A stretch of DNA of 64,000 nucleotides. Source: Haloarcula japonica DSM 6131 (lineage in GTDB: Archaea > Halobacteriota > Halobacteria > Halobacteriales > Haloarculaceae). The notes beneath the pieces are model-generated. The model was not told the DNA's origin, searched no databases, and worked only from the letters and a program-made list of their open reading frames with translations. The DNA lies in NCBI RefSeq assembly GCF_000336635.1, contig NZ_AOLY01000007.1, positions 123,413 through 187,412 of the forward strand, read 5' to 3'. The position numbers and the translations under genes were made by a program. Positions 43,879 through 46,500 of the stretch are shown one piece after another (position 1 is the stretch's first letter; each line of letters starts with the position of its first letter).

Positions 43879-45117
43879 CTACTTGTTCGTCCGGATGACG
43901 TCGAGTCCGTTGTTCTTCTCGCGCTGGTCCTGCCCGCCGTCGGTCTCGCTGTAGCCGGTGGTTCGACCGCCGCTGTTCTGACTCCCGCTGTTCGGGGCGG
44001 GGCTGTCGAAGCTTTCGACGTTGTCGGACGCGTCGAAGGACGTGTCGTCGCCGACTTCCTGAATCGCCTCGCGGGACTTGTTGGCCTGCTTCTGGGTCGT
44101 CGGACCGAGCACCTGCGCGGACTGGACGCCGGTCATGATCGCCATGACCCGCACCTTGCCCTTGTACTCTTCCTGAATCCGCGCGCCCCAGATGACGTTG
44201 GCGTCGGCCTCGAGCCGCTCGGTGATGTTCTGTGCGATGCCCTCGGCCTCCTTCAGCGTGAGGTCGGGGCCGCCGGTGATGTGGACCAGACCACCGCTCG
44301 CGCCGCGGTAGTCCACGTCAAGCAGCGGATGGTTCATCGCGTCTTTGACGACCTCCTCGGTCTTGTTCTTGTCCTGGGTCTCGCCGACCAGCATCACCGC
44401 GACGCCGCCCTGGTTCATGATCGATGTCATGTCGGCGTAGTCGAGGTTGATGAGGCTCGGCTGGGTGATGGTCTCGGAGATGCCCTTGACGGTCTCGGCG
44501 ATGATCTGGTCCATCACGGAGAACGCCTTGCCAATAGGCAGGTTCGGGACGTAATCGAGCAGGCGGTTGTTGTCCAGCACGATGATGGAGTCCGCTTCGT
44601 TGCGGAGCTTCTCCAGGCCTTCCTCGGCCTTGACCGTCCGCGCTCGCTCGACGTTGAACGGCGTCGACACCATGCCGACGACGATTGCGCCCTGCTCCTT
44701 GGCGATCTTCGAGACGACGGGGGCGGCACCCGTCCCGGTGCCGCCACCCATACCAGCGGTGACGAACACGAGGTCAGCGTCGCCCAGCACTTCCTTGATA
44801 GTCCCCTGTGCCATCTCCGTGGCGCGCTCGCCCATCGACGGGTCACCGCCGGCCCCGAGGCCGTTGGTGAGGGACTTGCCGACCAGAATCTTCGTGTCGG
44901 CTTCGATCATCTTGAGGTGCTGTTTGTCCGTGTTGATGGCCACGGTGTCAGCGCCCTCGACGCCGATGTTGTACAGGCGGTTGACCGTATTGTTGCCCGC
45001 GCCACCACAGCCGACGATGACGATGCGCGGGTCTCCGAACCCGTCGACGTCTTCGTCGGACATCTTCTTCTGTTCTTGCTCGTCGCGTTCGAGGGCCTCG
45101 TTGACGATATCCTGCAT
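43879..45117 (-). CDS. ftsZ: Cell division protein FtsZ (FtsZ2-type)
   Basis: Tubulin-like GTPase of the division ring. The GTP-binding GGGTGTG is at residues 124-130, with an early [17 protein letters not shown] and the T7 loop region LINLDYADM. The 412 residues end in a Ser/Gln-rich tail and [10 protein letters not shown]. The MQDIV start and the RHH neighbours are, from memory, those of haloarchaeal FtsZ2. A 58-residue RHH gene lies just 2 bases upstream, so both are in one transcript that starts with a structured leader. Confidence 0.94.
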
Positions 45118-45119
45118 CG

Positions 45120-45296
45120 TTACACCTTGGCCCAGGACCGCTTCTTTTCGGAGGCTTGCTCGGAGCCTTCCTCGGCGAGCATCTCCCGCACCGCCGAGCG
45201 AATCGCTTCGCTCCGATTGGGGTACTCGCCCGTCTCGACCATCTGTTCGACCTCTTCAATCTGCTGCTTCGGAATCCGTAGTGTCACACGCTCCAT
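45120..45296 (-). CDS. Ribbon-helix-helix (CopG-type) protein upstream of ftsZ
   Basis: A 58-residue protein: a basic beta-strand [20 protein letters not shown], then [18 protein letters not shown], the standard RHH pattern with the conserved N/S-R-S turn, and a short acidic/basic tail ending RSWAKV. It is only 2 bases ahead of the ftsZ ATG, so it must be coexpressed with it. It is probably a transcription regulator, perhaps of this same operon. Confidence 0.85.
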
Positions 45297-45360
45297 GTTT
45301 GGTAGTTTCCCCTTGGGTAAGACGGCCCGGACGGGGTCCGTTTACGCCCCGCACGAGTGT

Positions 45361-45431
45361 TTACACAGCGAAACCGCAGTACGAGGGCGGCATCCCCTCG
45401 AGTTCGCCGCTGTGTAAGACGACCGTCTTAC
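45361..45431. promoter_or_regulatory. Structured leader of the RHH-ftsZ operon
   Basis: TTACACAGCG (45361-45370) and CGCTGTGTAA (45408-45417) form a perfect 10-bp inverted repeat, with an internal stem CGAGGG/CCCTCG. Overlapping its edge is GTAAGACG-AC-CGTCTTAC (45414-45431). The likely minus-strand TATA elements (ttttaata near 45458 or tttattc near 45441) lie further upstream, so the structure would be transcribed as a leader of about 115-135 bases. GTTTAC motifs lie at 45340, 45359 and 45492 and as GTAAAC at 45522. Confidence 0.55.
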
Positions 45432-45533
45432 GCAGAATAAACCACTGACCCTGATGTATTAAAACTTACGGGCAGTGTCATACACTTTCCCGTTTACGGC
45501 GCCTGGGGGCGTGTATCGCGTGTAAACGCCAAC

Positions 45534-46160
45534 TTAGGTCTGATCAAGCACATCCGCCGCAGGTGTTCGTCTCCCACAACCCGGGCAGAATCCCCAGTCC
45601 GACCGGAGCTCATCGCCGCAGTCACAGAACACCCGGCGGGATGCCTTCTCACCGCAGTTCGGGCAGTAAACGTGGTCAGAACCCAAGTTTTCACCACATT
45701 GTGCGCACGTCTTACGTTCCTCCGTCTCGGCTCTGTCCCGTGTTTCCGTCTCTGTCTTACGCCCGCTCGTATCAGACGTTTGACTTTCGCCGTGGGACCG
45801 TCCGCCCTCAGTACTCGTACCTCGGTCAGCGGTGCGCCGTCGTTCGGTTTCGGCGTCCGCTGCCCCTGCGCTTACGCCGTCTAACGAGATGTTTACGTTG
45901 ACATCCTGCGGTTGCGAGGGTGGGCGTTGCGTCTGCAGTCGGTCGGCGATGATGCTGTCGACGCGTTCTTCGATGAGTTCGTCGATCGTCTCGGCGTCGG
46001 TCACTGACTCTGACGACGACGACGATGGTTCCGACGCTGACGGTGACGTGTCCCCGAGATACTCCCGGAGTGCTTCACGCATGACCTCGCTCTTCGAGGC
46101 GTCGAACGCCTCGAGTTGGTCGATGAGGTCATCATCAGCACGGAACGTTATCTTACTCAT
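45534..46160 (-). CDS. RHH and double zinc-ribbon protein
   Basis: A 208-residue protein. An N-terminal ribbon-helix-helix domain (about 1-40; ITFRADDDLIDQLEAFDASKSEVMREALREYL) is followed by a disordered Ser/Thr/Glu-rich linker and a C-terminal double zinc ribbon with four cysteine pairs (CAQC, CPNC, CDC, CPGC). Similar genes lie near ftsZ2 in other haloarchaea (from memory). It is probably a DNA-binding regulator or a division accessory factor. Confidence 0.8.
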   Translation of the reverse strand: MSKITFRADDDLIDQLEAFDASKSEVMREALREYLGDTSPSASEPSSSSSESVTDAETIDELIEERVDSIIADRLQTQRPPSQPQDVNVNISLDGVSAGAADAETERRRTADRGTSTEGGRSHGESQTSDTSGRKTETETRDRAETEERKTCAQCGENLGSDHVYCPNCGEKASRRVFCDCGDELRSDWGFCPGCGRRTPAADVLDQT

Positions 46161-46426: not shown

Positions 46427-46500
46427 CCGCCCTTAGCTCAGACTGGTAGAGCAGTCGACTGTAGATCGACTTGTCCCCCGTTCAAATCGGGGAGGGCGGA
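46427..46500 (+). tRNA. tRNA-Tyr (GTA anticodon)
   Basis: A 74-base cloverleaf without intron. The acceptor stem CCGCCCT pairs with AGGGCGG, and the last base is discriminator A. The anticodon stem GTCGA/TCGAC encloses loop CTGTAGA with anticodon GTA, and the T-arm is CCCCG/CGGGG around TTCAAAT. A C1-G72 pair is the archaeal tRNA-Tyr identity mark. CCA is not encoded. Confidence 0.96.

Follow-up and report, generated by a model that had tools for sequence, protein, structure and literature searches.

Which cis elements control the haloarchaeal operon that encodes an essential division regulator, CdrS, together with FtsZ2, and are they read as DNA, as RNA or as both? This question is raised by the window, a 64,000-nt stretch of the Haloarcula japonica DSM 6131 genome (contig NZ_AOLY01000007.1), for which a structured leader and repeated GTTTAC motifs had been predicted from the letters alone ahead of an RHH-ftsZ operon, as a possible self-regulating circuit. 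The circuit itself is already known from two reports (Darnell 2020, PMC7439475; mBio 2021, PMC8406309), which describe the same genes, in the same order and operon, as found here. CdrL binding upstream of cdrS-ftsZ2, DNA binding by CdrS and a Haloferax cdrS transcript drawn with a 5′ UTR (PMC8406309) are likewise reported there. The apparent novelty lies in the control region, in both its sequence and its structure: text searches of PMC7439475 and PMC8406309 found no CdrL operator sequence, leader structure or cross-species leader analysis, and the open-licence literature searched yielded no previous account of either motif or leader.

Most haloarchaeal mRNAs are leaderless. Since translational control by structured leaders was not typical in a Haloferax transcription start site (TSS) study (PMC4983044), a single-copy leader kept across Halobacteria on the cdrS-ftsZ2 operon is unexpected. 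A comparison of RNA-seq with Ribo-seq data has led to the proposal that the operon is controlled post-transcriptionally in Hbt. salinarum (PMC8303175); the leader is a concrete cis element candidate for such control, and the palindrome at its 5′ end is a defined operator candidate for CdrL or CdrS. The analysis presented here points to a structured 5′ leader RNA on the cdrS-ftsZ2 mRNA throughout the class, one that probably overlaps an RHH DNA operator.

The cdrL-cdrS-ftsZ2 locus

On the minus strand, cdrL is followed by a 237-bp gap, cdrS and ftsZ2 (Table 1), and both this gene order and the family-level protein matches are those that define the cdrL-cdrS-ftsZ2 locus. The two RHH proteins expected in the neighbourhood are thus named by family match: CdrL matches Pfam CdrL_M with 37.4 bits (cut-off 27) in addition to DZR and RHH_1, and CdrS belongs to the NCBIfam equivalog NF058555 TransRegCdrSHalo (119 bits, cut-off 100), with NikR as the second-best NCBIfam family. 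As judged from its sequence, the FtsZ identity of the ftsZ2 product is certain. A tRNA gene lies upstream of cdrL at 46427-46500 (+); a tRNA stands at a comparable distance from cdrL in 7 of the 10 relatives scanned, and synteny is therefore broad. In another genome, near-identical cdrS loci (L069 and L071) are located close to opposite ends of one complete chromosome record (CP132292.1), a duplication that may be an assembly overlap.

Table 1. Features of the cdrL-cdrS-ftsZ2 control region and its genes in the window
Feature	Position	Strand	Description and basis
cdrL	45534..46160	(-)	208 aa; RHH + CdrL middle region + double zinc ribbon; ORF
Box 0, GTATGAC	45477..45483	(-)	Upstream of TATA, ~45 bp before predicted TSS
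TATA-like element TTTTAATA	45457..45464	(-)	Sequence; spacing to box 1
Predicted cdrS-ftsZ2 5′ leader RNA	45297..45434	(-)	Covariance-model match; TSS ~45434 (±3), predicted from TATA position
Box 1, GTAAGAC	45425..45431	(-)	Palindrome left arm; P1 5′ strand
Box 2, GTCTTAC	45414..45420	(-)	Palindrome right arm; P2 5′ strand
P2 stem-loop	45361..45417	(-)	10-bp TTACACAGCG/CGCTGTGTAA with internal hairpin; covariation
Box 3, GTAAAC here	45359..45364	(-)	P2 3′ strand; GTAAGAC in most of class
P3 hairpin region	45324..45358	(-)	Between boxes 3 and 4; own-versus-swapped pairing, constrained folds
Box 4, GTCTTAC	45317..45323	(-)	P1 3′ strand; adjoins ribosome-binding region
SD-like GGGG	45309..45312	(-)	13-16 nt before ATG
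cdrS	45120..45296	(-)	58-aa RHH regulator; ATG at 45296
ftsZ2	43879..45117	(-)	NCBIfam TIGR00065 402.8 bits; Pfam Tubulin + FtsZ_C

A conserved palindrome at a fixed place in the promoter

Between the TATA-like element and the cdrS start codon lies a perfect 10-bp inverted repeat, its arms (45361-45370 and 45408-45417) 37 nt apart, which encloses a GAGGGG/CCCUCG-type stem in the fold and is overlapped by the palindrome GTAAGACGACCGTCTTAC at 45414-45431. All these elements of the original prediction are present at the predicted positions, and the palindrome locus is the sole place with fewer than three mismatches to GTAAGACGACCGTCTTAC in the 4.28-Mb genome.

Of 391 Halobacteria genomes, 380 contain the pattern GTAAGAC-N2..6-GTCTTAC, nearly all of them in single copy, while a reversed control pattern is found about zero times in the same genomes. 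Among 188 distinct cdrS upstream regions, 175 carry the palindrome at one fixed spot. The spacer between the arms is four in 151 of these loci and varies from two to six overall (14% not four), with the centres of boxes 1 and 2 lying 11 bp apart. The first T of the TATA-like element precedes box 1 by 33 or 34 nt in 165/175 loci. The distance from TATA element to transcription start in Archaea is well established, and because of it and of this rigid spacing, we infer a start 2-4 nt before box 1, here at about 45434.

Downstream, 164 of the 175 leaders have an exact box 4 (GTCTTAC; 0.5 expected) and 105 have box 3 as GTAAGAC or GTATGAC (1.6 expected); a GGGG no more than 26 nt from the ATG is present in 90% of leaders. 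Helical phasing of boxes 3 and 4 was considered and rejected, their distances being spread continuously. Upstream of the TATA element, a variant of box 0 exists in 86% of the 175 loci, mostly 52 bp from box 1, compared with 1.3% of shuffled sequences and 2.3% for a control stretch. Because box 0 falls outside the predicted transcript, the box word probably also acts in DNA.

A covariance model of the leader (R1) matches 45299-45434 with 91.2 bits, the single full-length locus in its own genome. In a scan with stricter filters, by which weak variants may be missed, it recognized 50 of 53 Halobacteria, and 242 genomes from elsewhere in Halobacteriota gave no match. Against 4227 Rfam families the leader gave no match, tRNA being the only matches obtained.

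Structure of the leader RNA

The four GTAAGAC/GTCTTAC boxes alternate in orientation and form two nested pairs, box 1 with box 4 (P1) and box 2 with box 3 (P2, which covarying pairs lengthen past its boxes); another hairpin, P3, lies between boxes 3 and 4. The leaders of different species show compensatory base-pair changes, by which a structured cis-regulatory RNA leader is recognized. When pairing within a leader's own sequence was compared with pairing after swapping between dissimilar leaders, the sequence after box 2 and the sequence before box 3 gave z values of about 7-10.6 for P2 (still 5.2 when 17 very dissimilar leaders were used), and the three pairings that served as controls stayed near 0. 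The inner pairs of P1 were also significant in this test, and P3, in which no box is involved, reached z 3.2-5.3; the flanks of boxes 1 and 2 gave no significant pairing. When the 5′ flanks of all four boxes were compared, those of boxes 2 and 3 alone proved more alike than swapped pairs, up to 5-6 nt outside the boxes. Since only these flanks co-evolve, pairing and not a drifting binding motif is indicated, and general operator drift was rejected as their source.

Alignments agree with this picture. In a 40-row alignment, 90.5% of cells are paired, a share that drops to 31-48% when the partner is slid, and there are 50 double-change cells versus 20.8 after shuffling; a 98-row alignment, which was fitted to the model and hence leans towards it, gave 90.6% of cells paired and 123 double-change cells versus 51.5. 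When changes were placed on a 57-protein FtsZ2 tree, the partner base mostly changed the same way: the same-way/other-way means at four P2 sites were 3.0/0.0, 3.3/0.2, 1.5/0.0 and 1.7/0.2 independent pairs, counts too few per single site for significance. RNAalifold on a plain MAFFT alignment recovered P1 alone, because the P2 flanks were misaligned there. The seven core pairs of P1 are invariant; due to this lack of variation, support for P1 consists of its two inner pairs and the conservation of box 4.

Folding energies point in the same direction. The 140-nt leader of this genome folds at z = -3.0, and in 67 dissimilar relatives the mean is -5.0 for the leader versus -0.8 for the region upstream; P1 and P2 together dominate the ensemble in 79% of leaders. 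With respect to strand, the sense fold is more stable in 40/67 leaders (p = 0.051) and G-U versus A-C states number 53 versus 48. These tests lean only weakly to the sense strand, so that a DNA structure instead of an RNA structure keeps some probability. Two other RNA arrangements were rejected: a local hairpin of boxes 1 and 2, which has no flank covariation and makes up 13% of the ensemble, and a four-segment attenuator switch (1:2 plus 3:4), for which 3:4 box pairing averages 10%. In Natrialbales-like leaders (e.g. L177, L179, L180 and L187), one block of the P3 region, GCGTCTGACAGGGGCGCGCC, is strongly conserved and has a GTCTGAC box within it. As a whole, the structured leader foreseen ahead of the RHH-ftsZ2 operon is supported by the TATA-box 1 spacing, the folding energy and the covariation.

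Probable DNA and RNA layers in variant leaders

Some leaders lose one part of the architecture and retain another. Leaders L214, L215 and L216 keep the palindrome, exactly or nearly, and have neither boxes 3 and 4 nor P1. Conversely, L217 and L218 have lost box 2 as GTCTTAC and retain P1, which in L218 bears a covarying extension (GTAAGACAG/CTGTCTTAC). In L173 and L174, box 3 is gone and box 2 is exact, and the P2 stem survives with different sequences, both sides having changed in step. Finally, in L154, L156 and L162, all from one genus, the start site bears direct tandem boxes with a 10-bp spacing (GTATGACTGCGTAAGACGGTGTATGAC and relatives). Separable variants of this sort would be expected from a palindrome that is read as DNA combined with P1 and P2 helices that act as RNA. 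As a separate observation, L214-L216, which represent two families (f9 and f11), share another hairpin directly after the palindrome, of the GCGTGTGAC...GTCACGCG type, with compensatory differences.

These variants bear on two simpler explanations. The first is a pure DNA operator array, in which all boxes would bind CdrL (or CdrS) and RNA complementarity would be a by-product of inverted repeats. It accommodates box 0 upstream of the TATA element, the CdrL ChIP peak at the locus, the invariant palindrome arms, the tandem 10-bp boxes of L154/L156/L162 and the box 0-box 1 (52 bp) and box-centre (11 bp) distances, which are near whole helical turns. It is nevertheless rather unlikely, given that co-variation of the flanks of boxes 2 and 3, reaching up to 5-6 nt outward, is confined to these two, that P3 pairs covary with no box involved, that L173/L174 retain the P2 stem despite the loss of box 3 and that the palindrome is kept where CdrL is undetectable. 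The second explanation, also unlikely, is an RNA element only (a riboswitch or protein-binding leader), with a palindrome that arises because P1 and P2 share a sequence and with no operator at the start site. The covariation, the independence of the palindrome from CdrL and the variable arm spacer, whose range of 2-6 is odd for a rigid DNA operator, would suit it; however, box 0 lies outside the transcript, L214-L216 have the palindrome without P1, L173/L174 have box 2 without box 3, and ChIP records a DNA-binding event at the cdrS-ftsZ2 promoter.

Candidate binders and proposed mechanism

RHH control of the locus, part of the original prediction, is already published. In Hbt. salinarum, a single reproducible CdrL ChIP peak is reported in the genome, located upstream of cdrS-ftsZ2 (PMC7439475). 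In Hfx. volcanii, CdrS is described as an essential RHH regulator and transcription factor with 18 ChIP sites, ftsZ1 included, and its own promoter is absent among these 18 sites (PMC8406309). With CdrL as the published binder and CdrS ChIP in Haloferax lacking the own promoter, self-regulation is unproven.

CdrS is present in nearly every genome searched and CdrL has been lost in several. Although every sequenced member has been described as encoding it, CdrL could not be detected in G035, G046, G062, G059, G287, G077, G333 and G133, all of them near-complete Halobacteria genomes, which returned weak zinc-ribbon matches only. All eight keep the exact palindrome, and CdrL as its sole user was rejected on this ground. 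At CdrS-target ftsZ1 promoters the sequence GTCAGAC-N4-GTCAGAC is found, with the same 11-bp spacing as in the cdrS palindrome; in this genome the ftsZ1 site and the palindrome have an identical inner GACGNNCGTC core and differ in their outer bases. Because of this common spacing and core, CdrS or another RHH protein could serve as the palindrome reader.

According to the favoured combination of leader RNA and overlapping operator, an RHH dimer pair would bind the box 1/box 2 palindrome together with box 0 and block initiation at the start predicted 2-4 nt before box 1, the binder being presumably CdrL where present and CdrS or another RHH protein where CdrL is lost. Once the leader is transcribed, P1, whose end is 13-26 nt short of the ATG, would close it immediately next to the SD-like GGGG and the start codon, and its opening and closing may tune ribosome access and translation, or decay and stability, of the operon mRNA. 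Both layers would jointly set the levels of CdrS and FtsZ2. A bolder extension, in which one regulator (CdrL via its zinc ribbons, or CdrS) binds both the promoter and its own nascent mRNA, with P1/P2 helices mimicking the operator in a two-level FtsZ2 feedback across all Halobacteria, is improbable.

Also improbable is the same architecture with CdrS as the main user of the palindrome, an arrangement in which CdrS would repress its own operon from the start site and CdrL would be secondary: near-universal CdrS among the genomes searched, set beside the losses of CdrL, and the 11-bp skeleton and identical core at ftsZ1 speak for it, yet the CdrS promoter is missing from the CdrS sites reported in Hfx. 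volcanii and it is CdrL that marks the cdrS-ftsZ2 promoter in Hbt. salinarum.

That the GTTTAC repeats themselves are operators of the neighbouring RHH proteins, as originally proposed, is very improbable: the four GTTTAC/GTAAAC copies (45340, 45359, 45492 and 45522) do cluster within 188 bp (190 had been given), and the genus average is 2.7 for each upstream region, but it falls to 0.8 elsewhere, the lack of conservation that had been named beforehand as an argument against operators, the conserved box being GTAAGAC/GTCTTAC, one copy is the genus variant of RNA box 3, and across the window the hexamer is not enriched (15 seen versus 11.3 expected), only its local clustering being unusual.

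Relation to known systems and related sites

Operators of the NikR/Arc/CopG type likewise consist of two half-sites with about one helical turn between centres, with a short GTNNNAC box; here the box sequence differs, the arms also form RNA helices and the operator is a candidate. L7Ae kink-turn leaders of archaeal mRNAs (PMC5539422, PMC6298567) are similar in that a leader structure is proposed for translation control by protein binding, but gene and RNA architecture differ. Cis-regulatory leader families of Rfam share with the present leader a conserved covarying structure in the 5′ leader of one gene, although none of them matches it.

Boxes of related sequence occur at other promoters. In L222-L224, L232, L235, L240, L242 and L243, the ftsZ1 promoter has GTCAGAC or GTCTGAC boxes repeated at an 11-bp spacing immediately before the BRE/TATA region, and these repeats are likely the sequence of the CdrS ChIP motif. 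At L253:1490-1530 (G000:C37:345506), a row of three tandem boxes, GTCCGAC-N4-GTCAGAC-N4-GTCATGC, directly precedes a TATA-like element, ahead of a bactofilin-type-looking ORF that is divergent from a lipoprotein-like ORF and possibly related to the CdrS target HVO_1611.
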